Source of the DNA: Vogesella indigofera
GTDB taxonomy: Bacteria > Pseudomonadota > Gammaproteobacteria > Burkholderiales > Chromobacteriaceae
Assembly (NCBI RefSeq): GCF_003633895.1
Contig: NZ_RBID01000017.1
Location: forward strand, 222,507 to 286,506
Length of the DNA: 64,000 bases
Direction: 5' to 3'
Part shown: piece after piece, positions 27-63,759 of the stretch
Layout of the letters: each line of letters opens with the position of its first letter
Numbering within the stretch: position 1 is the stretch's first letter
The notes under the pieces: model-generated
Database searches by the model: none
Seen by the model: only the letters and a program-made list of their open reading frames with translations
What the model was told of the DNA's origin: nothing
Program-made: the position numbers and the translations under genes

Positions 27-949
27 GTGCACCACGTCGGGTGAAATTGCCGATCAACGGCGTGCTGCTGCTGGACAAGCCTTACGACGTCAGCTCCAAC
101 GGAGCCCTGCAAAAGGCGCGCTGGCTGTACAGCGCCGCCAAGGCCGGGCATACCGGCGTGCTCGATCCGCTGGCGACCGGCCTGCTGCCGGTGTGCTTCG
201 GCGAGGCGACCAAGTTTTCGTCCTATCTGCTGGATGCCGACAAGGGCTACCGTGCCACCGTCAAGTTCGGCCAGGTCACCACCACCGGTGACATCGAGGG
301 CGAGGTGGTCATCGAGCGGCCGGTGACGTTTGACCGCGCGGCGCTGGAGCAAACGTTGGCCGCATTCTGCGGCGTGATTACCCAGGTGCCGCCGATGTAT
401 TCGGCGCTGAAATTCCAGGGGCGGCCGCTGTACGAGTATGCGCGCGAAGGCATCGAGATCGAGCGTGCCGGGCGCGAGGTCAGCATCCATCGCATCGAGC
501 TGCTGTCGTTTGACGGTGTCGATACCGCGGTGATCGAGGTGCTGTGCAGCAAGGGCACCTATATCCGTACCCTGGCACAGGATGTGGGCGAGCGGCTCGG
601 TTGCGGCGCGCACCTCACCGGCCTGCGCCGTACCACCACCGGCGGTTTCCGCCTGGAAGACGCGCATACGTTGGAAGCCATCGAGGCACTGCCGCGCGAG
701 GCGCGCGACGGCTTGCTGCTGCCGGTCGATATCCTGGTGTTGCATTTCCCCGAACAAACGTTGGCCGCAGAAGACGCACGCCGTTTTTGTCACGGCCAGG
801 CCGTGCGCGGTGCCCAAAACTGTGCGACAATGCAGCGCTTTCGTGTTTACCAAGCGCAGACACGGGAGTTTCTCGGACTGGCGGATGCAAGCGAAGATGG
901 CTTGCTTCAACCGGTACGGGTAATGGTTGCTCCGGCAACCGTCTTGTGA
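23..949 (+). CDS. truB: tRNA pseudouridine-55 synthase TruB
   Basis: The product (308 aa) isomerises U55 to pseudouridine in the T-loop of tRNAs. The family motif G-H-T-G-x-L-D-P-L-A-T-G-L-L is at residues 42-54, and its Asp falls at position 48, the number of the catalytic Asp in E. coli TruB. The length is normal and the C-terminal third has the usual PUA-like part. The ATG at 23 overlaps the stop of the preceding frame. The gene lies in the conserved order truB-rpsO-pnp and is probably the end of the nusA-infB operon. Two copies of the dispersed 13-bp word lie inside it (352 and 757), both encoding Gln-Thr-Leu-Ala-Ala. Confidence 0.96.
   Translation: MSAPRRVKLPINGVLLLDKPYDVSSNGALQKARWLYSAAKAGHTGVLDPLATGLLPVCFGEATKFSSYLLDADKGYRATVKFGQVTTTGDIEGEVVIERPVTFDRAALEQTLAAFCGVITQVPPMYSALKFQGRPLYEYAREGIEIERAGREVSIHRIELLSFDGVDTAVIEVLCSKGTYIRTLAQDVGERLGCGAHLTGLRRTTTGGFRLEDAHTLEAIEALPREARDGLLLPVDILVLHFPEQTLAAEDARRFCHGQAVRGAQNCATMQRFRVYQAQTREFLGLADASEDGLLQPVRVMVAPATVL
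352..364 (+). repeat. AACGTTGGCCGCA word inside truB
   Basis: Exact copy of the dispersed word AASGTTGGCCGCA. It is read as Thr-Leu-Ala-Ala with a TTG leucine codon, in a gene that otherwise favours CTG. Confidence 0.8.
757..769 (+). repeat. AACGTTGGCCGCA word inside truB, second copy
   Basis: Exact copy about 400 bp after the first one. It is again preceded by a Gln codon and read as Thr-Leu-Ala-Ala in the same reading frame. Confidence 0.8.
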
Positions 950-1021
950 AGTGTGGATGGGTTTCGGCTCGCTACACTTGTCGGGTGGCAACACCCTAAA
1001 CCGATATCGGAGTTTATTATT

Positions 1022-1291
1022 ATGGCAATGACCGCCGCTCAAAAAGCACAGATCGTTAAAGACTACCAGCGCCAGGAAGGCGACACCGGTTCTACCGAAG
1101 TTCAGGTAGCGCTGCTGACCGCTCGTATCAACGATCTGACCCCGCACTTCAAAGCGAACACCAAGGATCATCACAGCCGTCGCGGCCTGCTGAAACTGGT
1201 TAGCTCCCGTCGTCGTCTGCTTGACTACCTCAAGCGCACTGACGTCGCTGGCTACCGCGCTCTGATCGCTCGTCTGGGTCTGCGTAAGTAA
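1022..1291 (+). CDS. rpsO: 30S ribosomal protein S15
   Basis: Small-subunit protein of 89 aa that binds the central domain of 16S rRNA and bridges to the large subunit. It begins Met-Ala-Met-Thr-Ala-Ala-Gln-Lys and carries the family's H-F-K[13 protein letters not shown] core. The start is chosen to give the standard 89 residues; a CGGAG ribosome binding site lies at 1008-1012. An in-frame start further upstream would add non-homologous residues. The gene is followed by a strong terminator and stands between truB and pnp, as in most proteobacteria. Confidence 0.97.
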
Positions 1292-1303
1292 TCGGTTTAA
1301 ATT

Positions 1304-1336
1304 CGAAAAAGTCGCAGCCTGTCTGCGACTTTTTCG
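1304..1336 (+). terminator. rpsO terminator, bidirectional shape
   Basis: A perfect 14-bp stem (1304-1317 with 1323-1336) has a 5-nt loop. It has an A run on the 5' side and a T run on the 3' side. It separates rpsO from pnp, so pnp probably has its own promoter in the 120-bp leader that follows. Confidence 0.88.
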
Positions 1337-1455
1337 TTTCTGCAGTATCTTATTGAGTCAACGGGGGGAGCCTCTAGGAATCGGTATCGGTTACGGTGTT
1401 GATTGCTAGGGGTTCCCGTTGCAAGTTCTATTCCTTAAATCAAAGGAAACCTCAC

Positions 1456-3662: not shown

Positions 3663-3665
3663 ATT

Positions 3666-3678
3666 TGCGGCCAACCTT
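3666..3678 (-). repeat. AAGGTTGGCCGCA word at the pnp/alkA junction
   Basis: Exact copy on the minus strand, followed at once by a half-site GGTTGG, so that CCAACC and GGTTGG can pair. It lies just beyond the pnp terminator at a convergent junction. Confidence 0.8.
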
Positions 3679-4582: not shown

Positions 4583-5662
4583 ATGACCGCGACAGCAAAA
4601 CGCCGCGCCCTGGCGGCGGCAACGGAGGGCGATCCGCGCTGGGCGGCGGTGCTGGCACGCGATGCGCGCGCCGACGGCCGCTTCTATTACTCGGTGCAGA
4701 GCACCGGCGTCTACTGCCGGCCGTCGTGTGCGGCGCGGCAGGCGCGGCCGGAGAATGTGCGTTTTCACGCCAGCTGCGCCGATGCCGAACGCGCCGGCTT
4801 CCGCCCCTGCCAACGCTGCAAGCCGGACCAGCCGCCGCTGGCGCAGCAGCACGCGCAGAAGGTCACCGCCGCCTGCCGCCTGATCGACAGCGCGGACACG
4901 CTGCCGGACCTGGCAACGTTGGCCGCAGCGGTCGGCCTCAGCCGCTATCACTTCCACCGCCTGTTCAAGCAGCACACCGGGCTGACACCGAAGGCCTACG
5001 CCGCCGCGCGCCGCGCCGAGCGCGTGCGCAACGAGCTGCAGCAGCACGACACGGTGACGGCGGCGATCTTCGATGCCGGTTTCAATGCCAACAGCCGCTT
5101 CTACGCGCAGGCCGACGCGGTGCTGGGCATGACGCCCGGCGACTACCGCGCCGGTGGTGCGCGCACGGTGATCCGCTTCGCCATCGGCCAGTGCACGCTG
5201 GGCGCGATCCTGGTGGCGCAGAGCGAGCGCGGCGTGTGCGCGATTTCGCTGGGCGACGACGCCGAGGCGCTGCTGCACGAGCTGCAGGACCGCTTCCCGC
5301 GCGCGGAGCTGATCGGTGGTGACGCCGACTTCGAGCAGCTGGTGGCGACGGTGGTCGGCTTTGTCGAGGCGCCGGCGCTGGGGCTGGACTTGCCGCTGGA
5401 CGTGCGCGGCACCGCCTTTCAGCAGCGGGTGTGGCAGGCATTGCGCGAGATTCCGCCCGGCGAGACCGCCAGTTATCGCGACATCGCCCGGCGCATCGGC
5501 GCGCCGCAGGCAGTGCGCGCGGTGGCCGGTGCCTGTGCGGCCAACGTGCTGGCGGTGGCGATTCCCTGCCATCGCGTGGTGCGCACCGACGGCAGCCTGT
5601 CCGGCTACCGCTGGGGCGTGGCGCGCAAGCAGGCGCTGCTGGCGCGCGAGGCCAAGCCGTGA
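4583..5662 (+). CDS. ada: Ada: methylphosphotriester/O6-methylguanine-DNA methyltransferase and AraC-type activator
   Basis: Suicidal methyl acceptor and transcription activator of the adaptive response, 359 aa. The N-terminal Ada zinc domain has Cys45, Cys49, Cys76 and Cys79; the first is the expected phosphotriester methyl acceptor. An AraC-type helix-turn-helix follows (about 95-190). The C-terminal methyltransferase has Pro-Cys-His-Arg with Cys329. ATG at 4583 is 7 nt from AAGGA (4571-4575); an in-frame ATG at 4577 is only 1 nt away and less likely. alkB follows after 55 nt, probably in one operon. A copy of the 13-bp word (4915) encodes Thr-Leu-Ala-Ala. Confidence 0.95.
   Translation: MTATAKRRALAAATEGDPRWAAVLARDARADGRFYYSVQSTGVYCRPSCAARQARPENVRFHASCADAERAGFRPCQRCKPDQPPLAQQHAQKVTAACRLIDSADTLPDLATLAAAVGLSRYHFHRLFKQHTGLTPKAYAAARRAERVRNELQQHDTVTAAIFDAGFNANSRFYAQADAVLGMTPGDYRAGGARTVIRFAIGQCTLGAILVAQSERGVCAISLGDDAEALLHELQDRFPRAELIGGDADFEQLVATVVGFVEAPALGLDLPLDVRGTAFQQRVWQALREIPPGETASYRDIARRIGAPQAVRAVAGACAANVLAVAIPCHRVVRTDGSLSGYRWGVARKQALLAREAKP
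4915..4927 (+). repeat. AACGTTGGCCGCA word inside ada
   Basis: Exact copy read as Thr-Leu-Ala-Ala with a TTG codon. Confidence 0.8.
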
Positions 5663-6530: not shown

Positions 6531-6562
6531 CAAGGTTGGCCGCAGCGTTGCGGCCAACCTTG
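6531..6562. terminator. Inverted pair of the 13-bp word between convergent genes
   Basis: Exact copies at 6532-6544 (plus) and 6549-6561 (minus), 4 nt apart, form a perfect 14-bp hairpin between alkB and the acyl-CoA synthetase. It has no T run of its own, so a terminator role is inferred. Confidence 0.65.
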
Positions 6563-6566: not shown

Positions 6567-8213
6567 TTACTCGATGGCCGAGTTGGCGCGCGTCTGCTGT
6601 CGCAGCAGGAATTTCTGGATCTTGCCGGTGGAGGTGCGCGCAATCGGGCCGAAGATGATGCGCTTGGGCACCTTGAAGCGGGCGAGGTGGGCGCGGCAAT
6701 GTTCGATCACCGCCGCCTCGTCGCCGCTGACGCCTTCGCGCAGCTCGATGAAGGCGCACGGCACCTCGCCCCATTTCGGGTCCGGCAGCGCCACCACCGC
6801 CGCCGCGATCACGTCCGGGAAGCGGCACAGCACGTCTTCCACTTCCAGTGACGAGATGTTCTCGCCGCCGGAGATGATCACGTCCTTGGAGCGGTCCTTG
6901 ATCTTGACGTAGCCGTCGGGCTGGATCACCGCCAGGTCGCCGGTATGGAACCAGTCGCCGGCCAGCGCCTCGGCGGTGGCCGCCTCGTTCTTCAGGTAGC
7001 CCTTCATCACCAGGTTGCCGCGGAACATGATCTCGCCCATGGTCTCGCCGTCGTGTGGCACTTCCTGCATCGTCTCCGGATCCAGCACCGTCATGCCGTG
7101 CTGCATGGTGTAGCGCACGCCCTGGCGGCCGTTGCGCTCGGTGCGGCTGGACAGGTCCAGCGCCTGCCACGCCGGCTGCTTGGCGCAGACCGCGGCCGGA
7201 CCGTAGGTCTCGGTGAGGCCGTAGACGTGGGTGATGTTGAAGCCGAGCTTCTCCATGCCCTCGATCACCGCCGACGGTGGCGCGGCGCCGGCCACCAGGC
7301 AGCTGACCGGGTGGTCGATGCCCTGTTTGCACTCGGCCGGCGCGTTGATCAGCATGGTGTGCACGATGGGCGCGCCGCAGTAGTGGCTGACCTTGTGCTG
7401 CTTGATCAGCTCGAAAATCAGTCGCGGGTCGACACGGCGCAGGCAGACGTTGGTGCCAACGTTGGCCGCAACCGTCCACGGGAAGCACCAGCCGTTGCAG
7501 TGGAACATCGGCAGCGTCCACAGGTAGATGGCGTGGTGCGGCATGCCCCAGTCGACGATGTTGCTGATGGCGTTGAGGTAGGCACCGCGATGGTGGTAGA
7601 CCACACCCTTGGGGTTGCCGGTGGTGCCGGAGGTGTAGTTCAGCGCGATGGGGTCCCATTCGTCGGCCGGCAGCTGCCAGGCGAACTCCGGGTCGCCGCC
7701 GGCGAGAAAGTCCTCGTACTCCATCTGCCCCAGGCGCTCGCCGGGGCCGTCGTATTCCGCGTCGTCGACATCGATCACCAGCGGCGGCGTTTCCAGCAGC
7801 GCCAGCGCCGGCGCGATGGTGAAGCTGAACTCGCGGTCGGTGATCAGCACCCGCGCCTCGCCGTGCTGCAGCATGAAGGCAATCGCCTCCGGGTCCAGCC
7901 GGGTGTTGAGGGTGTTCAGTACCGCACCGGACATCGGCACGCCGAAGTGGCACTCCACCATCGCCGGGATGTTGGGCAGCATCACCGCCACGGTGTCGCC
8001 GGCGGTGACGCCGTGGCGTTGCAGCGCCGAGGCCAGACGTCGGCTGCGGGTGTAGGTGTCGCGCCAGTTGCGCTGCAGGCTGCCGTGGATCACGGCGATG
8101 TGTTCGGGGTAGACGCTGGCGGCGCGCTCGATGAAACCCAGCGGCGACAGCGCGGTGAAATTGGCGGCGGTCTTGCAAAGACCGGTCTGGTAGGGCTTGC
8201 GTGCTTGTGACAT
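6567..8213 (-). CDS. AMP-forming acyl-CoA synthetase, DmdB/AlkK-like
   Basis: Probable medium- or branched-chain acyl-CoA ligase, 548 aa. The adenylation motif Y-T-S-G-T-T-G-N-P-K-G-V, the Y-G-L-T-E-T-Y-G motif, the T-G-D-L-A hinge region and the C-terminal G-K-I-Q-K-F lysine motif are present. The segment L-P-M-F-H-C-N-G-W-C-F-P-W is typical of the subfamily holding 3-methylmercaptopropionyl-CoA ligase and medium-chain acyl-CoA synthetases; substrate cannot be told from sequence. The start at 8213 has AGGAGAG just upstream; an earlier in-frame start gives a non-conserved leader. Fatty or branched-chain acid use is likely, given the liu genes elsewhere in the window. Confidence 0.88.
   Translation of the reverse strand: MSQARKPYQTGLCKTAANFTALSPLGFIERAASVYPEHIAVIHGSLQRNWRDTYTRSRRLASALQRHGVTAGDTVAVMLPNIPAMVECHFGVPMSGAVLNTLNTRLDPEAIAFMLQHGEARVLITDREFSFTIAPALALLETPPLVIDVDDAEYDGPGERLGQMEYEDFLAGGDPEFAWQLPADEWDPIALNYTSGTTGNPKGVVYHHRGAYLNAISNIVDWGMPHHAIYLWTLPMFHCNGWCFPWTVAANVGTNVCLRRVDPRLIFELIKQHKVSHYCGAPIVHTMLINAPAECKQGIDHPVSCLVAGAAPPSAVIEGMEKLGFNITHVYGLTETYGPAAVCAKQPAWQALDLSSRTERNGRQGVRYTMQHGMTVLDPETMQEVPHDGETMGEIMFRGNLVMKGYLKNEAATAEALAGDWFHTGDLAVIQPDGYVKIKDRSKDVIISGGENISSLEVEDVLCRFPDVIAAAVVALPDPKWGEVPCAFIELREGVSGDEAAVIEHCRAHLARFKVPKRIIFGPIARTSTGKIQKFLLRQQTRANSAIE
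7458..7470 (+). repeat. AACGTTGGCCGCA word inside the acyl-CoA synthetase
   Basis: Exact copy antisense to the gene, read on the coding strand as Ala-Ala-Asn-Val. Confidence 0.75.
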
Positions 8214-8428: not shown

Positions 8429-10468
8429 ATGATGCAACACCCGCCGCCAGAGGCCGCGCCCGGCGCCATGCTGCTGTCCGGGCTGGACCTGCTGGACCAG
8501 GGCGTCACCGTGTTCGATGCCGAGCTGAAGCTGGTGGCCTGCAACCAGCGCTTCCTGACGCTGCTGGATTTCCCGCCGCAGCTGGCGGCGGTGGGCACGC
8601 CGTTCGAAGCCTATATCCGTTATAACGCCTGCCGCGGCGAATACGGCCCCGGCAATGCGGAGTTGCAGGTGGCGGAGCGGGTGGTGCGCGCGCAGCGCTT
8701 CGAGCGCCATGACCTTGAGCGCCTGCGTCCGGACGGCTCGGTGCTGCGCGTGCGCGGCGAGCCGTTGCCACAGGGCGGATTCATCGCGCTGTACACCGAC
8801 CAGACCGAACAGCAGGCCTACGCGCGGCTGCTGCAGCAGCAGAAGCAGGATCTGGAAGGTCACGTCGGGCAGCGCACCGCCGAGCTGGAGCAGGCGCGGC
8901 ACCAGCTGCGTGCCGCGCAGGCGGCCAACGTGCAGCTCGGTGCCGACTTGCAGCGCAGCGAACAGCGGCTGCGGCTGATCACCGACACCATCCCGGCGCT
9001 GATCGCCTATTTCGACCACGGCCAGATCTACCGTTACGCCAACAAGGGCTACGCCGACTGGTTCGGCCGCGACAGCGCGCAGATGAGCGGGCGCCACATC
9101 TCGCAGGCGCTGGGCAGCAAGTTCTACGCCGCGGTGCAGCGCTACGTCGAAGCGGCGCTGACCGGCAAGCAGCTCAGCTACGAATACTCGATGGAAAAGG
9201 ACGACGGCAGCACCATCTTCGCGCGCAGCACGCTGGTGCCGGAGATCGCCGCCGACGGCGAGGTGCTGGGCTGCTTCGTGCTGTCCTTCGACATCACCGA
9301 GCAGAAACAGACCCAGGCGGCGCTGGTGCAGGCGCAGAAGATGGAAGCCATCGGCCAGCTGTCCGGCGGCATGGCGCACGACTTCAACAACATGCTGACC
9401 GTGGTGCTGGGCAATCTCGGCGAATTGCGCCGCCATCTGCAGCAGCAGCCGGCGTTGCTGGACTATCTCGATCCGGCGCTCCACGCCGCCGGGCGCGGCG
9501 TGGAGCTGGTGCGGCGGCTGCTGGGTTTTGCCCGCCAGCAGCCGCTGCTGGCGCAGCCGGTACGCATCGGCGAGCTGATCCGCGGCATGATGCAGCTGCT
9601 GCAGCGCTCGCTGCCGGAAAACATCGTGCTGGATTGCCAGCTGGCGGCGGAGCTCGACTACGTGATGGCCGACGCGAACCAGCTGGAAAGCGCCATCCTC
9701 AACCTGGTGCTGAACGCGCGCGACGCGATGCCGGACGGCGGCAGGCTGCAGATTGCGGCCAACGTCGAGACGCTGGATGCGCGTGCCGCTGCCGAGTGGC
9801 AGCTGGCCGCCGGCGACTATATCCGCATCGACGTGACGGACAATGGCTGCGGCATGGCGCCGGCGCTGCAGCTGCGCGTGTTCGAGCCGTTCTTCACCAC
9901 CAAGCAGTTCGGCAGCGGCAGCGGCCTCGGGCTCGCGATGGTGTACGGCTTTGCGCGTCAGTCCGGCGGCCAGGTCAGCGTCAGCAGTCAGCTGGGGCGC
10001 GGCAGCGTGTTCAGCCTGCGCCTGCCGCGCACCACGCCGACGGCGCAGCCGCACGGCCTGCTCGATTTCAGTGGCAAGGCCGGTGGCCGTGAGCGGCCGC
10101 TGGTGCTGTTGGTGGAGGATGATCCGGAAGTGCGGCGCGTGGTGCAGCGGCAGCTGAGTGCGCTCGGCTACCCGGTGGTGGAGGCGGAAAACGGCGATGA
10201 GGCGGCGACGCTGCTGGCCAGCATCGCCGATATCGGCCTGCTGCTGAGCGACATCGTGATGCCGGGGCAGCTCGGCGGCCGCCAGCTGGCGGCGCTGGCG
10301 CGGCAGCAACGGCCGGCGATCCGCATCCTGCTGATGAGCGGCTACGCCGCGCCGCCGGAAGCGGAGGACGACAGCACCCGCGACATTCCGCTGCTGGCCA
10401 AACCCTTTACCGAGGCCCAGCTGGCCCGGATGCTCGACGAGGTGATGCTGTGTCCCAGAACGAACTGA
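8429..10468 (+). CDS. Soluble PAS-domain hybrid sensor histidine kinase
   Basis: Hybrid kinase of 679 aa without signal peptide or membrane segment, so a cytoplasmic sensor. Order: PAS-like domain (about 15-125), a coiled coil rich in Gln and Leu (about 130-180), a second PAS (about 185-295), HisKA with phospho-acceptor His317 in A-H-D-F-N-N-M, HATPase_c with N-box L-N-A-R-D-A-M and D-N-G-C-G-M, and a C-terminal receiver with Asp608 in L-S-D-I-V-M-P. AAGGA at 8416-8420 best serves the ATG at 8429; GTG 8426 and ATG 8432 are alternatives. The response regulator overlaps its 3' end by 19 nt. The signal sensed is unknown. Confidence 0.92.
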   Translation: MMQHPPPEAAPGAMLLSGLDLLDQGVTVFDAELKLVACNQRFLTLLDFPPQLAAVGTPFEAYIRYNACRGEYGPGNAELQVAERVVRAQRFERHDLERLRPDGSVLRVRGEPLPQGGFIALYTDQTEQQAYARLLQQQKQDLEGHVGQRTAELEQARHQLRAAQAANVQLGADLQRSEQRLRLITDTIPALIAYFDHGQIYRYANKGYADWFGRDSAQMSGRHISQALGSKFYAAVQRYVEAALTGKQLSYEYSMEKDDGSTIFARSTLVPEIAADGEVLGCFVLSFDITEQKQTQAALVQAQKMEAIGQLSGGMAHDFNNMLTVVLGNLGELRRHLQQQPALLDYLDPALHAAGRGVELVRRLLGFARQQPLLAQPVRIGELIRGMMQLLQRSLPENIVLDCQLAAELDYVMADANQLESAILNLVLNARDAMPDGGRLQIAANVETLDARAAAEWQLAAGDYIRIDVTDNGCGMAPALQLRVFEPFFTTKQFGSGSGLGLAMVYGFARQSGGQVSVSSQLGRGSVFSLRLPRTTPTAQPHGLLDFSGKAGGRERPLVLLVEDDPEVRRVVQRQLSALGYPVVEAENGDEAATLLASIADIGLLLSDIVMPGQLGGRQLAALARQQRPAIRILLMSGYAAPPEAEDDSTRDIPLLAKPFTEAQLARMLDEVMLCPRTN

Positions 10469-11212: not shown

Positions 11213-11246
11213 CTGCGGCCAACCTTGTGCTCAAGGTTGGCCGCAG
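11213..11246. terminator. Inverted pair of the 13-bp word, convergent junction
   Basis: Exact copies at 11214-11226 (minus) and 11233-11245 (plus) form a perfect 15-bp stem with loop TGCT, between the response regulator and the convergent oxidoreductase. This is the only hairpin in that gap. Confidence 0.7.
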
Positions 11247-15967: not shown

Positions 15968-16001
15968 CAAGGTTGGCCGCAACGCATTGCGGCCAACCTT
16001 G
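15968..16001. terminator. Inverted pair of the 13-bp word, convergent junction
   Basis: Exact copies at 15969-15981 (plus) and 15988-16000 (minus) form a 15-bp stem with loop CGCA before the end of the ABC transporter gene. A separate classical terminator already exists 60 bp away, so termination alone does not explain this hairpin. Confidence 0.65.
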
Positions 16002-44251: not shown

Positions 44252-46186
44252 ATGCCCCACAATGCTTCACCCCGCGTGCTGTCCATCATCCCGCCGATGA
44301 CGCAGCTGAACACGCCTTACCCGTCCACCGCCTACATCACCGGCTTTCTGCGCTCGCGCCAGATCGATGCGGTGCAGGAGGACCTGGCGCTGGCGCTGGT
44401 GTTGCAGCTGTTCTCGGTGGCCGGCCTGAAGGCGGTGCGCGAGCGCATCGACGCCATCGCGCCGAAAAAGCGCAGTCATCAGGTACGCCATTTCGTCGAG
44501 TTTTTCGAACGCTATCTCGCCACAATCGGCCCGGTGATCCGCTTTTTGCAGGGCGGCGATTCCACCGTCAGCCATCGCATCTGCAGCCGCGGCTTTTTGC
44601 CTGAGGGCGCGCGTTTTGCCGCGCTGGACAACTATGTCGACCCGGATGATCCGGACGGCGGCGATCCGCTGGCGTGGGCGTTCGGCGCGCTGGGGGCGCA
44701 GGACAGGGCGCGGCATCTGGCCACGCTGTACCTGAATGATTTGTCCGACGTGCTGCGCGACGCGGTGGACGAGCGCTTCGAGTTCGTGCGCTACGCCGAA
44801 TCGCTGGCGATGAGCCAGCCCACCTTCGAACCGCTGGCCGCTGCGCTGGCGGCACCGCCGACGCTGGTGGACGACACGCTGCAGGCGCTGACGATTGCCG
44901 CCATCGACAAGCACCAGCCTGACCTCGTGCTGCTGTCGGTGCCGTTCCCCGGCTCGGTGTACGCCGCGTTCCGCATCGCGCAGACCATCAAGCAACGTTG
45001 GCCGCATATCAAGACCGCGCTGGGTGGCGGCTTCGTCAACACCGAGCTGCGCGAACTGCGCGAGCCGCGCGTGTTCGACTACTTCGACTTCGTGACGCTG
45101 GACGACGGCGAGAAGCCCATCCTCGCGCTGCTGGAGCACCTGCAGGGGCAGCGTGGCGTCAGCCGGCTGGTGCGCACCTTCGTGCGCGACGGCGATCTGG
45201 ATGGCAATGGAGTAGTGCGCTACGTCAACATGATGGAAGGCGACATCGCCTTCGAGGACGTCGGCGCGCCGACCTGGGACGGGCTGCCGATCGATCGTTA
45301 CCTGTCGCTCCTGGACATGCTCAACCCGATGCACCGGCTGTGGAGCGACGGCCGCTGGAACAAGCTGACCGTGGCGCACGGCTGCTACTGGAAGAAGTGC
45401 AGCTTCTGCGACGTGACGCTGGACTACATCTCGCGCTACGAGACGGCGTCCGCCGCCACGCTGGTCGACCGCATCGAGGCCATCATCGCCGAGACCGGCC
45501 AGACCGGTTTCCACTTCGTGGACGAGGCGGCGCCGCCGAAGATGCTGCGCGCGCTGGCCGAGGAGCTGTTGCGCCGCAATGTCAGCATCTCGTGGTGGGG
45601 CAATATCCGCTTCGAGAAATCGTTCACCCCCGAGCTGTGCCAGCTGCTGGCCGAATCCGGCTGCATCGCCATCTCCGGCGGGCTGGAGGTGGCCTCCGAC
45701 CGCCTGCTGAAGCTGATGAAGAAGGGCGTATCGGTCGACCAGGTGGCGCGGGTGACGCAGGGCTTTACCGAGGCCGGCGTGCTGGTGCACGCCTACCTGA
45801 TGTACGGCTTCCCGACGCAGACGGTGCAGGACACCGTGGACGCGCTGGAGTACGTGCGCCAGCTGTTCGAGAACGGCTGCATCCAGAGCGGCTTCTTCCA
45901 CCGCTTTGCCTGTACCGTGCACTCGCCGGTGGGGCAGAACCCGGAGGAGTACGGCGTCAAGCTGATCCCGTTGCCGGAGGTGACCTTTGCCAAGAACGAC
46001 ATCGGCTTCATCGACCCGACCGGCACCGATCACGACGCGATGGGCCGTGCGCTGAACAAGGCGCTGTACAACTACATGCACGGCATCGGGCTGGAGGCGG
46101 ACGTGCGCGAGTGGTTCGACAGCAAGGTGCCGCGCACGCGGGTGTCGCGCCATTTCATCAGCAAGGCGCTGTTCAGCCAGCGCTGA
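44252..46186 (+). CDS. Radical SAM protein with N-terminal B12-binding-like domain and CX4CX2C cluster motif
   Basis: Protein of 644 aa. The N-terminal half resembles the cobalamin-binding fold (I-I-P-P-M-T-Q-L-N-T-P-Y-P-S-T-A-Y-I, then L-V-L-L-S-V-P-F-P-G and A-L-G-G-G-F-V-N-T-E) but I see no D-x-H-x-x-G base-off motif. The radical SAM domain starts with G-C-Y-W-K-K-C-S-F-C-D: Cys378, Cys383 and Cys386, four residues between the first two instead of the usual three. I-S-G-G-L-E-V-A and Y-L-M-Y-G-F-P-T are further SAM-domain segments. The reaction is unknown. GGAA precedes the ATG at 44252. Confidence 0.85.
   Translation: MPHNASPRVLSIIPPMTQLNTPYPSTAYITGFLRSRQIDAVQEDLALALVLQLFSVAGLKAVRERIDAIAPKKRSHQVRHFVEFFERYLATIGPVIRFLQGGDSTVSHRICSRGFLPEGARFAALDNYVDPDDPDGGDPLAWAFGALGAQDRARHLATLYLNDLSDVLRDAVDERFEFVRYAESLAMSQPTFEPLAAALAAPPTLVDDTLQALTIAAIDKHQPDLVLLSVPFPGSVYAAFRIAQTIKQRWPHIKTALGGGFVNTELRELREPRVFDYFDFVTLDDGEKPILALLEHLQGQRGVSRLVRTFVRDGDLDGNGVVRYVNMMEGDIAFEDVGAPTWDGLPIDRYLSLLDMLNPMHRLWSDGRWNKLTVAHGCYWKKCSFCDVTLDYISRYETASAATLVDRIEAIIAETGQTGFHFVDEAAPPKMLRALAEELLRRNVSISWWGNIRFEKSFTPELCQLLAESGCIAISGGLEVASDRLLKLMKKGVSVDQVARVTQGFTEAGVLVHAYLMYGFPTQTVQDTVDALEYVRQLFENGCIQSGFFHRFACTVHSPVGQNPEEYGVKLIPLPEVTFAKNDIGFIDPTGTDHDAMGRALNKALYNYMHGIGLEADVREWFDSKVPRTRVSRHFISKALFSQR
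44994..45006 (+). repeat. AACGTTGGCCGCA word inside the radical SAM gene
   Basis: Exact copy, here in a different frame (Gln-Arg-Trp-Pro-His). Confidence 0.75.
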
Positions 46187-46200: not shown

Positions 46201-46238
46201 CACTGCGGCCAACCTTGTCACCAAGGTTGGCCGCAGTG
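46201..46238. terminator. Inverted pair of the 13-bp word, convergent junction
   Basis: Exact copies at 46204-46216 (minus) and 46223-46235 (plus) extend to a perfect 17-bp stem with a 4-nt loop between the radical SAM gene and yheS. It is the only hairpin there. Confidence 0.72.
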
Positions 46239-46268: not shown

Positions 46269-48170
46269 TCAGCCCTCCAGTGCCTCCATCGCTTCCTGCA
46301 GTTCCAGCCACGCCATTTCCATTTCCTCCAGCTGGGCGGAGAGTTCGCCCTGTCGCTTCAGCGCGGCGGCCAGCCGTGCCTTGTTGTGCTCCTGGTAGGC
46401 TTCTTCCAGCAGCAGGAAGGCGTCCAGCTCGGCCTTTTCGACGTTAAGCGTGGCCATGTCCTTGTCCAGCTTGTTCTGCTTGGTCTGCAGCGGCTTGCGT
46501 TGCGCCGCCAGCTTGTTGCGGGCATCGGCCTCCAGCCGCTTCTGTTCCTTGCGGTTGACGCCGTCGCTGGCGGCGCTGCCCGGCGCCTTGCCGTTGTCGG
46601 CCTGCTGCTGCAGCCGCCACTGGCGGTAGTCTTCCAGATCGCCGTCAAACGGCTGCACCTTGCCGCCGGCCACCAGCCAGAAAGCGTCGGTGGTGGATTC
46701 CAGCAGCGAGCGGTCGTGCGACACCACGATCAGCGCGCCGCCGAAGTCCTGCAGCGCCAGCATCAGCGCGTGACGCATGTCGAGGTCGAGGTGGTTGGTC
46801 GGTTCGTCTAGCAGCAGCAGGTTGGGCTTCTGCCACACCAGCAGTGCCAGCGCCAGGCGCGCCTTTTCGCCGCCGGACATCGGCCCGACCAGCGCGTTGA
46901 CGGTGTCGCCGCGGAAGTTGAAGCCGCCAAGGAAGCTGCGCAACTCCAGCTCGCGCGCCTGCGGCGCCAGCTTCTGCATGTGCCACAGCGGCGATTCGTC
47001 GGAACGCAAGGTATCGAGCTGGTGCTGGGTGAAGTAGCCGATGCGCAGCATCTTGGCGCCGATCACCTCGCCGGCCAGCGGCTGCAGCTCGCCGGCCAGC
47101 AGCTTCACCAGCGTCGACTTGCCGGCGCCGTTGACACCGAGCAGGCCGATGCGGCTACCGGATTCCACCGACAGCGACAGCTGGCGCAGGATGGGGGTGT
47201 CGCCGTAGCCGACATCGGCGCGTTCCAGCTTCAGCAGCGGGTTGGGCAGGTTGTCCGGGGTGTCGAAGTGGAAGTCGAACGGCGAATCGACGTGCGCCGG
47301 CGCGATGCGTTCCAGTTTCTCCAGCGCCTTGATGCGGCTCTGCGCCTGGCGTGCCTTGCTGGCCTTGGCCTTGAAGCGGGTGATGAACGATTCCAGGTGC
47401 GCGACCTGGCGCTGCTGTTTCTCGTAGTTGCCCTGCTGCTGGGCCAGCTTTTCCGCGCGCATCACCTCGAACTGGCTGTAGTTGCCGGTGTAGAGGGTGA
47501 GCTTCTGCTGCGACACGTCGACGATGTGCGTCACCACGCTGTCGAGGAAGTCGCGGTCGTGCGAGATCACGATCAGCGTGCCTTCGTAGGCCTTCAGCCA
47601 GTCTTCCAGCCACAGCACCGTTTCCAGGTCCAGGTGGTTGGTCGGTTCGTCCAGCAGCAGCAGGTCGGAGCGGCACATCAGCGCCTGCGCCAGGTTCAGG
47701 CGCATGCGCCAGCCGCCGGAGAAGGTGGACACCGCGCGGCTCTGGTGTTCGACGGGGAAGCCGAGGCCGGCCAGCAGCTTGCCGGCGCGGGCGGCGGCGG
47801 AATAGCCGTCGATGCGGTCCAGCTCGGCGTGCAGGCTGCCGATGGCGTTACCGTCGGCACTGGCTTCGGCGGCGGCCAACCCTTGCTGCAGGCGGCGCAG
47901 CTCGGCATCGCCGTCGAGCACGAAATCGAGTGCCGATTGCGGCAGCGCCGGGGTTTCCTGCGCCACGTGCGCCATGGTCCAGTGCGGCGGCAGCAGCACT
48001 TCGCCGCTTTCGGCGTGCAGTTCGCCCTTCAGCAGCGCGAAGACGCTGGACTTGCCGGCGCCGTTGGCACCGGTCATGCCGACCTTGTTGCCGGGGTTGA
48101 TGGTGAGGTTGGCCGCAACAAGCAGTTCTTTCAGGCCACGGCGCAGGGACAGGTTTTTTAGCTGGATCAT
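46269..48170 (-). CDS. yheS: ABC-F family ATPase YheS
   Basis: Soluble tandem ABC ATPase of 633 aa, ribosome-associated ABC-F type, no membrane segments. Walker A motifs are G-A-N-G-A-G-K-S-S and G-V-N-G-A-G-K-S-T; signatures are F-S-G-G-W-R-M-R and M-S-G-G-E-K-A-R; both Walker B motifs read L-L-L-L-D-E-P-T-N-H-L-D. The linker between them is rich in Gln/Lys/Arg, and the C-terminus is a charged coiled coil of about 110 residues. It ends convergent to the radical SAM gene; tsaD lies upstream in the same direction. Confidence 0.94.
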   Translation of the reverse strand: MIQLKNLSLRRGLKELLVAANLTINPGNKVGMTGANGAGKSSVFALLKGELHAESGEVLLPPHWTMAHVAQETPALPQSALDFVLDGDAELRRLQQGLAAAEASADGNAIGSLHAELDRIDGYSAAARAGKLLAGLGFPVEHQSRAVSTFSGGWRMRLNLAQALMCRSDLLLLDEPTNHLDLETVLWLEDWLKAYEGTLIVISHDRDFLDSVVTHIVDVSQQKLTLYTGNYSQFEVMRAEKLAQQQGNYEKQQRQVAHLESFITRFKAKASKARQAQSRIKALEKLERIAPAHVDSPFDFHFDTPDNLPNPLLKLERADVGYGDTPILRQLSLSVESGSRIGLLGVNGAGKSTLVKLLAGELQPLAGEVIGAKMLRIGYFTQHQLDTLRSDESPLWHMQKLAPQARELELRSFLGGFNFRGDTVNALVGPMSGGEKARLALALLVWQKPNLLLLDEPTNHLDLDMRHALMLALQDFGGALIVVSHDRSLLESTTDAFWLVAGGKVQPFDGDLEDYRQWRLQQQADNGKAPGSAASDGVNRKEQKRLEADARNKLAAQRKPLQTKQNKLDKDMATLNVEKAELDAFLLLEEAYQEHNKARLAAALKRQGELSAQLEEMEMAWLELQEAMEALEG

Positions 48171-49930: not shown

Positions 49931-49952
49931 TTGCGGCCAACCTTGGCCGCAA
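49931..49952. repeat. 13-bp word with a palindromic half downstream of the OsmC-like gene
   Basis: Exact AAGGTTGGCCGCA on the minus strand at 49932-49944. The facing arm TTGGCCGCAA makes TTGCGGCCAA and TTGGCCGCAA pair around CC. Confidence 0.75.
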
Positions 49953-53042: not shown

Positions 53043-53786
53043 ATGGATAAGGTGCTGTATCTGGCAATGAATGGTGCGAAGCACGTCGCATGGCAACAGG
53101 CGACCACTTCCAACAACCTTGCCAACGTCCATACCAACGGCTTCAAGGCCGATCTGGCGTCTTTCCGGGCGCTGCGCGTGATCGGCGACGGTGCGCCGAC
53201 GCGTACCTACCAGGTCGACAATACCGTCGGTCACGACATGAGCCAGGGTTCGCTGCAGCTGACCGGCAACGAAAGTGATTTCGCGCTGGCAACGCCGGGT
53301 TTTTTTGCGGTGCAGGCACCGGGTGGTGGCGAGGCCTACACCCGCGACGGCGGCTACATCGTCGACACCGAAGGCGTGATGCGCACCCGTTCCGGGCTGG
53401 CGATCCAGGGTGAGGGTGGCCAGATCGTGGTGCCGCCGGGCTCGCGGATCACCCTCGGCATCGACGGGACGGTATCGGCTTCCGCCAGCGTCGGCGCCGA
53501 CCGTACCGTGCAGGTGCTGGGTCGCATCAAGCTGGTCAATCCGGGGGAGCGTGCGGTGTACAAGGGCGATGACGGCCTGTTCCGCCAGCACGACGGCCAA
53601 GACGCACCGGCTGCGGCCAACGTGCAGCTGAAGAGCGGCTTCCTGGAGGCCAGCAACGTCAATGCGGTCGAGAGCCTGGTGCAGATGATCAGCCACTCCC
53701 GCCATTACGATCTCAATATCAAGCTGATGCAGACGGCGGAGCAGAATGCCCGCCAGGCGACAGAATTGCTGTCGATTACCGGCTAA
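53043..53786 (+). CDS. flgF: Flagellar basal-body rod protein FlgF
   Basis: Rod protein of 247 aa with M-D-K-V-L-Y-L-A-M-N-G-A-K, N-N-L-A-N-V-H-T-N-G-F-K at the N-terminus and an S-N-V-N-A-V-E-S-L-V-Q-M-I C-terminal helix. It is encoded between flgE and flgG, as in most proteobacteria. Confidence 0.95.
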   Translation: MDKVLYLAMNGAKHVAWQQATTSNNLANVHTNGFKADLASFRALRVIGDGAPTRTYQVDNTVGHDMSQGSLQLTGNESDFALATPGFFAVQAPGGGEAYTRDGGYIVDTEGVMRTRSGLAIQGEGGQIVVPPGSRITLGIDGTVSASASVGADRTVQVLGRIKLVNPGERAVYKGDDGLFRQHDGQDAPAAANVQLKSGFLEASNVNAVESLVQMISHSRHYDLNIKLMQTAEQNARQATELLSITG

Positions 53787-55310: not shown

Positions 55311-56408
55311 ATGTCGCGTTTTGTCGTGGTGGTTTGCCTGGCGCTGCTGGCCGGTCCGCTGTTTGCCGCCCAGAAGATCAAGGAGCTGGCCAGCGTGGCC
55401 GGGGTGCGCTCCAACCCGCTGATCGGTTACGGCCTGGTGGTCGGCCTCGATGGTAGTGGCGACAAGGCCAGCGCCTCGCCGTTCACCGGCCAGTCGCTGG
55501 GCAATATGCTGAACCAGCTCGGGGTGCAGATCCCGCAGGGGATGAAGATCGACCCGAAGAACGTGGCCGCGGTGAGCCTGACCGCGACCCTGCCGCCGTT
55601 TGCGCGGCGCGGCCAGGCGCTGGACATCACGGTGTCGTCGATCGGCGATGCCAAGAGCCTGCGTGGCGGCACCTTGCTGCTGTCGCCGCTGAAGGGTATC
55701 GACGGCCAGATCTACGCGCTGGCACAGGGTAATGTGGTGGTCGGCGGTGCCGGCGCCGCCGCCGGGGGCAGCAAGACGCAGATCAACCACCTCAGTGTTG
55801 GCCGCATTCCGGCGGGGGCGACGGTCGAGCGCGAGTTGCCGGCTTCGCTGGGCATGGGCGACATGGTGGCGCTGCAGTTGCTGGAATCGGATTTCACCAC
55901 CGCCAACCGCGTGGTACAGGCGATCAATCGCGAGCTGGGCGGCCAGACGGCGCGGGCGCTGGACGGTCGCCAGATCGAGGTGCGGGCGCCGCAGGACAGC
56001 AATGCACGGATCCAGTTTCTGTCGCGGCTGGAAAATATTGCCGTCGAGGCGGCAGAAGTTTCCCCCGTGGTGATCATCAATGCCCGTACCGGCTCCATCG
56101 TGATGAACAAGGCGGTACGCATCGACCCGTGCGCGATTGCCCACGGCAACCTGTCGGTGACGGTCAACAGCACCTCGACGGTGAGCCAGCCACCACCGCT
56201 GAGCGGCGGCCAGACGGCGGTCACCCGCAAGGCCGATGTCAGTGTCAGTGCCGACGGCAGCAAGGTGGTCAACATTCCCGGCGGTGCCTCGCTGTCGGAG
56301 GTGGTCGGCGCCCTGAATTCGGTTGGCGCCACGCCGCAGGACCTGATCTCCATCCTGCAGGCGATGAAGGCTTCCGGCTCGCTGAAGGCGGAATTGCAGA
56401 TCATCTGA
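55311..56408 (+). CDS. flgI: Flagellar P-ring protein FlgI
   Basis: Periplasmic P-ring subunit of 365 aa with a cleavable signal peptide (about 1-19). The mature start I-K-E-L-A-S-V-A-G-V-R-S-N-P-L-I-G-Y-G-L-V-V-G-L-D-G-S-G-D-K is diagnostic. It ends the first flagellar transcription unit, since a terminator follows. Confidence 0.96.
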   Translation: MSRFVVVVCLALLAGPLFAAQKIKELASVAGVRSNPLIGYGLVVGLDGSGDKASASPFTGQSLGNMLNQLGVQIPQGMKIDPKNVAAVSLTATLPPFARRGQALDITVSSIGDAKSLRGGTLLLSPLKGIDGQIYALAQGNVVVGGAGAAAGGSKTQINHLSVGRIPAGATVERELPASLGMGDMVALQLLESDFTTANRVVQAINRELGGQTARALDGRQIEVRAPQDSNARIQFLSRLENIAVEAAEVSPVVIINARTGSIVMNKAVRIDPCAIAHGNLSVTVNSTSTVSQPPPLSGGQTAVTRKADVSVSADGSKVVNIPGGASLSEVVGALNSVGATPQDLISILQAMKASGSLKAELQII

Positions 56409-56414
56409 GCGGCA

Positions 56415-56427
56415 AGGTTGGCCGCAA
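56415..56427 (+). repeat. AAGGTTGGCCGCA word downstream of flgI
   Basis: Exact single copy just before the flgI terminator; the only copy inside the flagellar region. Confidence 0.75.
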
Positions 56428-60306: not shown

Positions 60307-61470
60307 ATGCAAACCATCCTCGCCCAGCTGATCGCTTTTGACACCACCAGTCGTGAGTCCAACCTGGCCCTGATCCGGTGGGTGCAGGACTATCTGGCGC
60401 AGTTTGGCGTGGACAGCACGCTGACTTTTTCCGATGCCGGCGACAAGGCCAACCTGTTTGCTGTGATCGGGGGTCCGGCGCTGCCGATCGTGGTGTTGTC
60501 CGGGCACACCGACGTGGTGCCGGTCGACGGCCAGAGCTGGCAGAGCGACCCTTTCATCATGAGCGAGCGCGAGGGTCGTCTCTATGGTCGCGGCAGTTGC
60601 GACATGAAGGGCTTCATCGCGTGCGTGCTGTCCCTGGTCGAGGAGTGGACAAGGTTGGCCGCAGCCGGCCAGTTGCAGCGCGCCATCGGTATCGCGCTGT
60701 CTTACGACGAGGAAGTCGGTTGTCTGGGCGTCGGGCGCCTGATTGCCGACCTGCAGCAGCGACAGTTGCCGATCGAGGGCTGCATCATCGGCGAGCCGAC
60801 CATGATGCGGCCGGTGATCGCCCACAAGGGCATTGCCCATTACCGTTGCCGCGTGCTCGGCCGCGCCGCGCATTCCTCGCTGACGCCCAAGGGTGTCAAC
60901 GCCATCGAGTATGCCGCCAAGCTGATCGTGCACATCCGCAAGCTGGCCGATGCCGAACAGAGTTTCGGCATGCGACAGGCACTGTATGACGTGCCGTTCA
61001 CCACCTTGCAGACCGGCGTCATCCACGGCGGCACCGCGGCCAACATCGTGCCCAAGGATTGCGAGTTCGTGTTCGAGTGCCGCTGGCTGCCGGGTGACAA
61101 TCACCAGCGTTTCGTCGACTCGGTGCGCGACTACGCGGCGCTGCTGAGCGCGGAGATGCAGCAGGTGGCGCCAGAGGCGGCGATCAGCTTCGAGCCGCTG
61201 GTCAACTGCCCGCCGTTCGAATCGGACGCCGACAGCAGTGTGCGCCAGCATGTCGACGCGCTGTGCCATGGTTGCCTTGGCGAAGCGGTGGCCTACACCA
61301 CCGAGGCCGGCCGCTTTGCCGAGGCCGGTATTGCCGCGGTGGTGTGCGGCCCCGGTTCGATCGAGCAGGCGCACCGTCCCGACGAGTATGTTGAGCTCGG
61401 CCAGCTGGCGCTGTGCCGCGACTGGCTGTTGCGGCTGACCGAGCGCCTTGTGCGCCCGGTGGGGCTGTAA
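60307..61470 (+). CDS. argE: Acetylornithine deacetylase ArgE (M20 metallopeptidase family)
   Basis: Zinc hydrolase of 387 aa that removes acetate from N-acetylornithine in arginine synthesis. S-G-H-T-D-V-V-P and R-G-S-C-D-M-K-G-F carry the first metal ligands; S-Y-D-E-E-V-G-C-L-G carries the catalytic Glu pair and is typical of ArgE rather than DapE. It follows flgL by 7 nt, so flagellar transcripts may read into it. A copy of the 13-bp word (60651) encodes Arg-Leu-Ala-Ala. Its TAA stop abuts a MITE-like element. Confidence 0.88.
   Translation: MQTILAQLIAFDTTSRESNLALIRWVQDYLAQFGVDSTLTFSDAGDKANLFAVIGGPALPIVVLSGHTDVVPVDGQSWQSDPFIMSEREGRLYGRGSCDMKGFIACVLSLVEEWTRLAAAGQLQRAIGIALSYDEEVGCLGVGRLIADLQQRQLPIEGCIIGEPTMMRPVIAHKGIAHYRCRVLGRAAHSSLTPKGVNAIEYAAKLIVHIRKLADAEQSFGMRQALYDVPFTTLQTGVIHGGTAANIVPKDCEFVFECRWLPGDNHQRFVDSVRDYAALLSAEMQQVAPEAAISFEPLVNCPPFESDADSSVRQHVDALCHGCLGEAVAYTTEAGRFAEAGIAAVVCGPGSIEQAHRPDEYVELGQLALCRDWLLRLTERLVRPVGL
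60651..60663 (+). repeat. AAGGTTGGCCGCA word inside argE
   Basis: Exact copy read as AGG-TTG-GCC-GCA, Arg-Leu-Ala-Ala, with two codons unusual for this genome. Confidence 0.8.
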
Positions 61471-61722: not shown

Positions 61723-61745
61723 GTCATTTCAAGGTGGGACAAACC

Positions 61746-63128
61746 ATGAAACAAACTACGCAACCCGCGACACCCGCGGGTCAGGCGCGGGATGCCTTTA
61801 CCAGCAGCTTCGGCGTGCTGGCGGCGACGCTCGGTTCCGCGGTCGGGCTGGGCAATATCTGGAAGTTTCCTTATGTCACCGGTGCCAATGGCGGCGCCGG
61901 TTTCCTGCTGGTGTACCTGCTGGCCACGCTGTTGGTCGGCCTGCCGGTGATGATTGCCGAGATCATGCTTGGCCGCAAAGCCAAGGCCGACGCGGTCACC
62001 ACCCTGCGGGTGCTGGCACCGGCCGGGCAATACTGGTGGCTGATCGGTGCCTCCGGGGTGCTGGCGGCGTTCCTGATCCTTTCGTTCTATTCCGAAGTGG
62101 CGGGCTGGGTGTTCGCCTATGTGTTCAAGGCCATCGGCGGCGACATCCTGAGCAAGGATCCGGCGCAGACCTCGGCCGCGTTCGGCGCGCTGGTGTCCGA
62201 TCCGCTGCAGTCGCTGCTGTGGCAGTGGGGCGTGCTGCTGTTCATCGGCGGTATCTTGTTGCTGGGCGTGGCCAAGGGTATCGAGGCGGTCACCAAGAGG
62301 CTGATGCCGGTGCTGTTCATCCTGTTGCTGGTGCTGGGCGTGCGCAGCCTGATGCTGCCGGGCGCGTCGCAGGGGCTGGCCTTCCTGTTCGCCCCCGATT
62401 TTTCCAAGATCACCGCCGAAGTGGCGTTGATCGCGATGGGGCTGGCGTTCTTCAAGTTGTCGATCGGCATGGGCACCATGATGACCTATGGCAGCTATTT
62501 CCGTGATGACCAGAACATTCCTGCCACCACGGTACGGGTGATGAGCGCCGACCTGTTCGTGTCGATGCTGGCCGGTATCGTGGTGTTCCCGGCGGTGTTC
62601 ACCTTCGGCTTCAAGCCGGAAGCCGGGCCGTCGCTGCTGTTCATCACCATTCCGGCGGTGTTCGCCAGCATGCCGATGGGGCACCTGTTCATGGTGCTGT
62701 TCTTCGTGCTGTCGGCGGTGGCGGCCACCGGTGCCATGCTGTCGCTGCTGGAAGTGCCGGTGTCGGTGATGGTCGGCCGTTTCGGCATCAGCCGTGCCAG
62801 GGCGACGCTGATCAACCTGCTGCTGCTGGGCGTGATCGGCGCCAGCTGCGCGCTGTCCAACAGCGTGCTGGCCGACGTCAAGCTGTTCGGCATGACCTTC
62901 TTCGACTTGTTCGACTTCGTGTCATCGTCCATCCTGTTGCCGATAGGCGGCATCTTCATCTGCCTGTTCGTGTCCTGGGTATGGGGCAAGGACAAGATGA
63001 TGGCGGCACTGTCGAACGAAGGCGTGCTGCACAACCGTGTCGTGGTGCAGCTGCTGTACGGTTTGCTGAAATACGTGACCCCGCTGCTGATCCTGCTGGT
63101 GATGCTGAAGGGGCTGGGGCTGCTGTAA
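61746..63128 (+). CDS. Sodium-dependent amino acid symporter, NSS (neurotransmitter:sodium symporter) family
   Basis: Inner-membrane symporter of 460 aa with about 11 membrane segments, the short bacterial NSS form. The first helix has G-S-A-V-G-L-G-N-I-W-K-F-P-Y, the unwound sodium and substrate site of LeuT-type proteins, and helix 6 has F-F-K-L-S-I-G-M-G-T-M-M-T-Y-G-S-Y. The substrate is probably an amino acid; which one is unknown. AAGGTGG lies 8 nt before ATG 61746, which is preferred over the GTG at 61734. Confidence 0.92.
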   Translation: MKQTTQPATPAGQARDAFTSSFGVLAATLGSAVGLGNIWKFPYVTGANGGAGFLLVYLLATLLVGLPVMIAEIMLGRKAKADAVTTLRVLAPAGQYWWLIGASGVLAAFLILSFYSEVAGWVFAYVFKAIGGDILSKDPAQTSAAFGALVSDPLQSLLWQWGVLLFIGGILLLGVAKGIEAVTKRLMPVLFILLLVLGVRSLMLPGASQGLAFLFAPDFSKITAEVALIAMGLAFFKLSIGMGTMMTYGSYFRDDQNIPATTVRVMSADLFVSMLAGIVVFPAVFTFGFKPEAGPSLLFITIPAVFASMPMGHLFMVLFFVLSAVAATGAMLSLLEVPVSVMVGRFGISRARATLINLLLLGVIGASCALSNSVLADVKLFGMTFFDLFDFVSSSILLPIGGIFICLFVSWVWGKDKMMAALSNEGVLHNRVVVQLLYGLLKYVTPLLILLVMLKGLGLL

Positions 63129-63206
63129 GTCGGGCAGGGGCTGCCGTATTGGCAGTCTCTGCTATAGAACAAGCAGGAGCAGGGCAAGCAGAAACGGGAG
63201 AAGAGG

Positions 63207-63707
63207 ATGGCAGGCCGATTGCTGGTTGGCGCCGTTGCCGCCGCCTGCGGTGGCGCACTGGTGCTGTTCTTGCTGCTGTCGCAGGAGCGCCTGCCGGTGG
63301 CGGAGTCCGTGTTCCCGCCGGATCGCAATGGCGACCTGCTGCGTGACGACGTCGGCGAGCTGATTGCCGCGCGCTTTGCCGGCAATGCGGCGGCGTTTGC
63401 CGCCAGCAGCCAGCTGGCGCGGGCGTGGCAGCGCGCGGTGCGGCAGACCGATCCGGCCAGGCTGGGGCCGGAGGTGACGCAGGTGCGCTACGCGATGTCC
63501 TGTGTGCTGAGCGAGCAGACGCTGGGCAAGGCCAGGGTCGATGCGCAGACCATGCTGCACTTCCTCGACCTGCTGCATGCGCGGATGTTCGATACCCTGG
63601 CGCGGCGGCAGCTGTGGCAGCAGTACGAACGCAGCGCCAGCCGCATTCCGCACGGGGAAACGCCGCTCAACCCCTGTCGTTTCGACGTCTCGGCGATGGT
63701 GGGCTGA
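63207..63707 (+). CDS. Hypothetical membrane-anchored or secreted protein with a calcium-loop-like motif
   Basis: Protein of 166 aa not recognised. A hydrophobic segment (about 5-25) without a clear cleavage site suggests an N-terminal anchor. D-R-N-G-D-L-L-R-D-D (39-48) resembles a dockerin/EF-hand calcium loop. The rest is helical, with Cys99 and Cys157 able to form a disulfide in the periplasm. GAGAAGAGG precedes the ATG. It lies 78 bp after the symporter and could be its co-transcribed partner, though that is only position. Confidence 0.6.
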   Translation: MAGRLLVGAVAAACGGALVLFLLLSQERLPVAESVFPPDRNGDLLRDDVGELIAARFAGNAAAFAASSQLARAWQRAVRQTDPARLGPEVTQVRYAMSCVLSEQTLGKARVDAQTMLHFLDLLHARMFDTLARRQLWQQYERSASRIPHGETPLNPCRFDVSAMVG

Positions 63708-63725
63708 GCCGTCACGCCATCAAGC

Positions 63726-63759
63726 AAACGTTGGCCGCAAGTGATTGCGGCCAACGTTT
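63726..63759. terminator. Inverted pair of the 13-bp word with T tract, convergent junction
   Basis: Exact copies at 63727-63739 (plus) and 63746-63758 (minus) make a 15-bp perfect stem with loop GTGA, followed by seven T residues. This is the clearest case of the word acting as an intrinsic terminator. Confidence 0.82.

Follow-up and report, generated by a model that had tools for sequence, protein, structure and literature searches.

A DNA-uptake-sequence-like word dispersed through Vogesella genomes, with apparent dialects in sister genera

The window studied here, the whole 64-kb stretch of the Vogesella indigofera genome that was analysed, contains a dispersed 13-nucleotide word, AASGTTGGCCGCA, built on the 10-nucleotide core GTTGGCCGCA. 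We propose that the word is, with high probability, a self signal resembling the DNA uptake sequence (DUS), and that an uptake-sequence system exists in Vogesella and its sister genera; the data are best read as a DUS-like uptake system that comprises three or more new dialects. It is observed that the word is abundant, lineage-specific, symmetrical between the strands and conserved between species, that competence genes are present, and that the word is associated with a loop type of the pilin ComP. The initial annotation had guessed a Chromobacteriaceae lineage, which is right, the host being Vogesella, the genus named by a search with its ComP-like pilin, and had read the word as an uptake-type signal, a reading that, at the level of sequence analysis, is supported in that it survived the refutation tests run on counts, specificity, strand symmetry and pilin.

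Results

The copy counts given below are for whole genomes, while the statistics of motif, context and strand come from samples of 440-492 kb. In the 3.62-Mb genome of the window (G000), the 13-mer is present in 1372 copies (704 on one strand and 668 on the other) and its reversed control in 1, and the core is present in 2057 copies (1040 and 1017, that is, equally on both strands, a point that the initial annotation had proposed to check) and its reversed control in 9. In a 92-kb sample the core was observed 57 times against 0.68 expected from a third-order Markov model, about 80 times the expectation, so that the count is not near the background. The 266 cores sampled from 492 kb of G000 give a motif best written CAA(G/C)-GTTGGCCGCA-A, its 5' CAA(G/C) and 3' A being weaker than the core. 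It has a semi-conserved 5' dinucleotide, with A at position -2 in 85% and G or C at -1 in 94%, and the preference for AAS (S, G or C) on the 5' side consists of AAG at 117 and AAC at 66 of the cores. The information in the motif drops to the background outside about -4 to +11, and one-mismatch variants of the core are rare at positions 3-6 and 9, with positions 1, 2, 7, 8 and 10 accepting some mismatches, position 10 the most. From the flat flanks and the few mismatch variants it follows that the word is short and sharply defined, rather than one end of some longer repeat.

The core is present in 1876-2895 copies in all 14 Vogesella genomes and in 8-58 copies in the 48 other genomes of the family, and among 398 genomes sampled from the order no other was conspicuous for it. 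The word is thus confined to Vogesella among the 62 family genomes and the order sample. Its density in Vogesella is about one copy per 1.4-2.1 kb, counting both strands. The ratio of the 13-mer to the 10-mer is about 0.66 in five Vogesella species, reflecting a strong 5' AA(G/C), and 0.24-0.33 in nine, where it is weaker. As a yardstick, the known DUS core GCCGTCTGAA was counted 252-4285 times in genus f44/g53, which we take for Neisseria; nearly all others were at background. Family f18 had been taken for Neisseriaceae; this was wrong, the order-wide search for GCCGTCTGAA having put the DUS in f44/g53.

Related words occur in sister genera: GTTGGCCGAG in the sampled stretches of genus g5, and GTTGGCCGAA in g6, g7, g9, g10 and one species of g2 (G010). 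Counted over whole genomes, GTTGGCCGAR is present 240-2224 times in the word-carrying g5, g6, g7, g9, g10 and G010, and only 28-154 times in g3, g4, g8 and the remaining g2, the top values there being those of two g8 genomes. With 1386 copies, G010 is the sole g2 species with the word and provides a natural within-genus contrast. It is noted that Frye et al. (2013) reported no obvious DUS in five genomes of Chromobacterium, Laribacter, Lutiella and Pseudogulbenkiania (PMC3630211). If g6 or g10 is Pseudogulbenkiania, the genomes of that study would have included the word.

All 14 Vogesella genomes encode a minor pilin that is the candidate receptor. In G000 it is P0001, a type IV pilin of 142 amino acids encoded at G000:C11, outside the window; in the three Vogesella loci viewed at that length its gene has pilQ-aroK-aroB close by, and aroB is nearby in 14 of 14. 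The only PDB sequences matched by the soluble domain of P0001 are the Neisseria ComP structures 2NBA, 2M3K and 5HZ7 (best E value 4e-10), of which 2NBA is the ComP of N. subflava (PMC12061091). P0001 also matches the Pfam family ComP_DUS with 46 bits (cut-off 27.3), as does the PilE-like P0002; because this family matches in 61 of the 62 family genomes as well as P0002, it does not discriminate and was dropped as a presence test, whereas the PDB comparison of the soluble domain discriminates. With regard to the ComP fold, a helix with five antiparallel strands, AlphaFold2 modelling of the V. alkaliphila orthologue from three sequences gave a helix and five strands at a predicted local distance difference test score (pLDDT) of 68, and the top Foldseek match of this model is ComP 2M3K, with a weak E value of 0.07. 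The initial annotation had suggested looking for ComP-like minor pilins; besides this one, profile matches in Vogesella include ComEA (14 of 14), DprA (14 of 14) and ComEC (12 of 14). Note also that a FimT-like minor pilin (L062:6583-7014, minus strand), with no match in Pfam, adjoins comP; within Vogesella the two diverge in step, and the FimT-like pilin is a second DNA-binding candidate.

The type of the ComP loop is associated with the presence of the word. We aligned 37 orthologues, 22 from word-carrying and 15 from word-less genomes, with the N. subflava ComP fragment, genus g9 being excluded. Of the 22 proteins of word carriers, 21 have the loop motif N-x-D-x-G (the exception, G061, has NTDPD), and none of the 15 others has it; likewise, 21 of 22 (all but G010, with YT) and 0 of 15 share with Neisseria ComP the pair [YF]K before WPxLP. 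N-x-D alone was rejected as a separator: all 22 proteins of carriers have it, and so do 4 of the 15 word-less ones. Within g2, the loop of G010 is NTDAG and that of the three word-less species is NARAD, G010 being the sole one of the four proteins with N-x-D-x-G. In the word-less g4, the best matches examined are other pilins without WPxLP. Modelling of Neisseria ComP gave the alpha1-beta1 and beta1-beta2 loops as consistent DNA contacts (PMC12061091), and from this and the aligned position we infer that the N-x-D-x-G loop may touch DNA.

The placement of the word was analysed with gene calls from a simple purpose-written caller. Of the 266 sampled words in G000, 121 are intergenic against 50 expected; over half of the copies lie inside genes, and the single copies comprise 133 intragenic and 55 intergenic ones. 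The intragenic words use the reading frames unevenly, which we take to mean that frames giving disruptive residues are avoided. Inverted pairs of the word sit 3' of genes; of the 29 intergenic pairs in G000, 18 are flanked by convergent genes and 1 by divergent ones. Strand assignment by GC skew in G060, whose genome is a single contig, puts 157 sampled words on the leading strand and 159 on the lagging one. At one locus compared between clade-A species, 31 of 35 aligned words are intact, against 30-57% of all 10-mers.

Three lower-GC 20-kb samples of G000 (L121, L122 and L132; GC 0.56-0.57) hold 3, 1 and 0 cores, and the other twenty samples hold at least 7 each. These near-wordless stretches are possibly acquired DNA. 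Their positions on contig C1 are 40-90 kb and 370-390 kb. There is a gene for a TniB transposition protein in L132 and one for a KAP-NTPase in L122. L148 was discarded as a low-GC stretch, its apparent low GC having come from masked N bases.

In the window itself, all 32 exact 13-mers claimed by the initial annotation were found, and 0 of 100 shuffled sequences had any; one claimed position, 56415, was off by one, the correct start being 56414. Seven more cores, whose 5' end differs, bring the total to 39, as listed below.

352..364, + strand: word AACGTTGGCCGCA, intragenic
757..769, + strand: word AACGTTGGCCGCA, intragenic
3666..3678, - strand: word AAGGTTGGCCGCA, intergenic
4915..4927, + strand: word AACGTTGGCCGCA, intragenic
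5536..5545, - strand: core only GTTGGCCGCA, intragenic
6532..6544, + strand: word AAGGTTGGCCGCA, left arm of inverted pair between convergent genes
6549..6561, - strand: word AAGGTTGGCCGCA, right arm of inverted pair with 6532
7458..7470, + strand: word AACGTTGGCCGCA, intragenic
9754..9763, - strand: core only GTTGGCCGCA, intragenic
11214..11226, - strand: word AAGGTTGGCCGCA, inverted pair between convergent genes
11233..11245, + strand: word AAGGTTGGCCGCA, inverted pair with 11214
15969..15981, + strand: word AAGGTTGGCCGCA, inverted pair between convergent genes
15988..16000, - strand: word AAGGTTGGCCGCA, inverted pair with 15969
18283..18295, - strand: word AAGGTTGGCCGCA, intragenic
21458..21470, - strand: word AACGTTGGCCGCA, overlapping palindromic pair with 21465
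21465..21477, + strand: word AACGTTGGCCGCA, overlapping palindromic pair with 21458
23598..23610, - strand: word AAGGTTGGCCGCA, inverted pair inside a called open reading frame
23618..23627, + strand: core only GTTGGCCGCA (5' AGG), partner of 23598
26493..26505, - strand: word AAGGTTGGCCGCA
30262..30274, - strand: word AAGGTTGGCCGCA, intragenic
31062..31074, - strand: word AACGTTGGCCGCA, intragenic
32726..32738, + strand: word AAGGTTGGCCGCA, intergenic
35322..35334, + strand: word AAGGTTGGCCGCA
37820..37832, + strand: word AACGTTGGCCGCA, intragenic
39019..39031, - strand: word AACGTTGGCCGCA, overlapping palindromic pair between convergent genes
39026..39038, + strand: word AACGTTGGCCGCA, overlapping palindromic pair with 39019
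40741..40753, + strand: word AAGGTTGGCCGCA, intergenic
42710..42719, - strand: core only GTTGGCCGCA, intragenic
44994..45006, + strand: word AACGTTGGCCGCA, intragenic
46204..46216, - strand: word AAGGTTGGCCGCA, inverted pair between convergent genes
46223..46235, + strand: word AAGGTTGGCCGCA, inverted pair with 46204
48108..48117, + strand: core only GTTGGCCGCA, intragenic
49932..49944, - strand: word AAGGTTGGCCGCA, intergenic
53612..53621, - strand: core only GTTGGCCGCA, intragenic
55797..55806, + strand: core only GTTGGCCGCA, intragenic
56414..56426, + strand: word AAGGTTGGCCGCA, intergenic
60651..60663, + strand: word AAGGTTGGCCGCA, intragenic
63727..63739, + strand: word AACGTTGGCCGCA, left arm of terminator-like inverted pair
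63746..63758, - strand: word AACGTTGGCCGCA, right arm of the 63727 pair, then a T run on the + strand

Other repeated words were met in the samples. In G045 of genus g9 (L196-L198) the palindrome GCTTAAGC, a dispersed palindrome like the highly iterated palindrome 1 (HIP1), is over-represented, with 26 copies against 0.9 expected in 60 kb. In Craterilacuibacter sp. RT1T (L115) there are CTACTCCC/GGGAGTAGG repeats, about 10 copies in 20 kb, possibly a tandem array. Pooled samples of four Vogesella (L063-L066) hold the repeated words TTTACCCTGAT and GTTACGCCCTGT, which are unrelated to the uptake-type word.

Discussion

The word resembles the DUS in several respects: the very high count on both strands (2057 in G000, to be compared with 252-4285 in f44/g53), a 10-mer core with semi-conserved 5' bases, inverted pairs 3' of genes, dialects that follow lineages, and a ComP-type minor pilin as the candidate receptor. 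The A at +10 is also shared by the GCA and GAA forms, with G instead in genus g5. By contrast with the DUS (PMC3630211), the core is GTTGGCCG(C/A)(A/G), the identity to the nearest dialects is 8-9 of 12, and the family is another one. The initial annotation had called the word unrelated in sequence to the known words, which is right only in part. With dialect strings checked against the text of PMC3630211, the family motif AGGTTGGCCGAA as an ungapped 12-mer is identical to simDUS and mucDUS at 9 of 12 positions, and the Vogesella 12-mer AGGTTGGCCGCA is identical to DUS dialects at 8 of 12 at most. For a random 12-mer of like composition, the probability of reaching 9 identities with one of eight dialects, both strands being allowed, is 0.004 for one register, hence about 0.02 if five registers are allowed. 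Homology of the word family to the DUS is suggested by these sequence likenesses.

The uptake signal sequence (USS) of the Pasteurellaceae, with its core of the AAGTGCGGT type, is similarly a dispersed asymmetric word marking self DNA, but it has another core and belongs to another family, and the Vogesella motif contains no AAGTGCGGT-type core. The receptor of the USS is different, the predicted pilin ComN (PMC12616744). As to earlier descriptions, searches of the open-licence literature found nothing joining uptake sequences with Vogesella; for uptake sequences and Chromobacteriaceae they gave titles on Neisseriaceae or Neisseria species only, and for the word strings no title, among those listed, naming these words in an uptake sense. 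This bears out, for the literature searched, the remark in the initial annotation that no description of the word was known.

Several observations weigh against a DUS-like system read by a ComP. The CTG at +6 to +8, invariant in Neisseriaceae DUS (PMC3630211), is replaced by CCG in all the dialects found. The mature domain of P0001 has two cysteines only, that is, one pair, differing from the ComP of DUS systems with its two disulfides (beta1-DD loop and beta4-beta5). The loop motifs were chosen post hoc from the alignment, with few independent lineages and kinship uncorrected. Genus g3 retains a ComP-like pilin without any word, and all four word-less proteins with N-x-D are from g3, with a three-residue insertion just before the motif. 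In G045, an 80% complete g9 genome with 1872 words, the best pilin match lacks WPxLP. Among the draft genomes, G058 and G059 gave no ComEC match and the ComEC of G049 is split, and competence genes by themselves are common in bacteria. Because the CTG invariant and the second ComP disulfide are absent, we do not class the word as a strict DUS dialect; the system may work like the DUS and may be related to it.

Different roles for the word can be considered. Polar chromosome-maintenance sites such as Chi or the FtsK-orienting polar sequences (KOPS), or a comparable signal for repair or segregation to which an intracellular protein binds, are likewise short, abundant, lineage-specific and conserved. 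Such sites are skewed to the leading strand, however, and the Vogesella word is divided 157 to 159, which argues against them; its scarcity in the low-GC stretches and its association with an extracellular pilin type argue in the same direction, and we consider this explanation very improbable. A word that is chiefly the arm of transcription-terminator hairpins, spread by selection on termination, would be consistent with the inverted pairs 3' of genes, their frequent convergent placement and the T runs at some of them; but most copies are single, over half are intragenic, and termination requires no fixed 10-mer identical at all sites, so that little credence is left for it. Equally little is left for a methylation- or restriction-associated word with a role in DNA modification, of which the HIP1-like words of cyanobacteria, abundant and dispersed but of unclear function, offer a precedent: the word here is asymmetric, longer than 10 bp and has graded flanks, and its presence goes with a DNA-uptake pilin type. 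Membership of a mobile family, or of one like repetitive extragenic palindromes (REP) or miniature inverted-repeat transposable elements (MITE), could account for many identical copies, some in inverted pairs, but conservation is absent outside about 15 bp, many copies lie within coding frames and few lie in the sampled low-GC stretches, making this origin next to impossible. The replication-polar, repeat-element and terminator-only readings were thus set aside on strand balance, flat flanks and single intragenic copies.

It is also conceivable that the word is an uptake sequence whose receptor is another pilin, for example the FimT-like pilin encoded beside comP. FimT pilins bind DNA in other bacteria, and the adjacency of this gene to comP and the divergence of the two in step fit such a role. 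However, the receptor known from the sister family is of the ComP type, and it is the ComP sequence type that splits word carriers from non-carriers; a receptor other than ComP is therefore held to be improbable.

Returning to the DUS-like system with ComP as its receptor, we propose the following pathway. The ComP-like P0001 on the type IV pilus would bind double-stranded DNA carrying GTTGGCCGCA, the pilus would draw the bound DNA in through PilQ, and ComEA, ComEC and DprA would hand it on to recombination. Since word-bearing DNA would be taken up more often, uptake and recombination would spread the word and keep it chromosome-wide; what we infer, then, is DNA binding, enhancement of uptake and uptake-driven accumulation of the word. 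In the sister genera the dialects GTTGGCCGAA and GTTGGCCGAG would play the same role.

As to the history of the system, we lean slightly towards the view that the DUS/ComP language is older than the split of Neisseriaceae and Chromobacteriaceae, with Chromobacteriaceae forming a second branch that is built on the core GTTGGCCG, has 3' dialects numbering at least three (CA, AA and AG), and was lost in several genera together with the reading type of ComP.

Two families are known to have self-tagged DNA uptake, and the word adds an apparent second branch of the Neisseria type in a sister family. Moreover, with dialects, apparent losses and a candidate receptor type linked to the word, the co-evolution of receptor and word becomes testable outside Neisseria. 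The word also suggests that these bacteria take up DNA selectively, in which case it would be a practical tag for transforming them.

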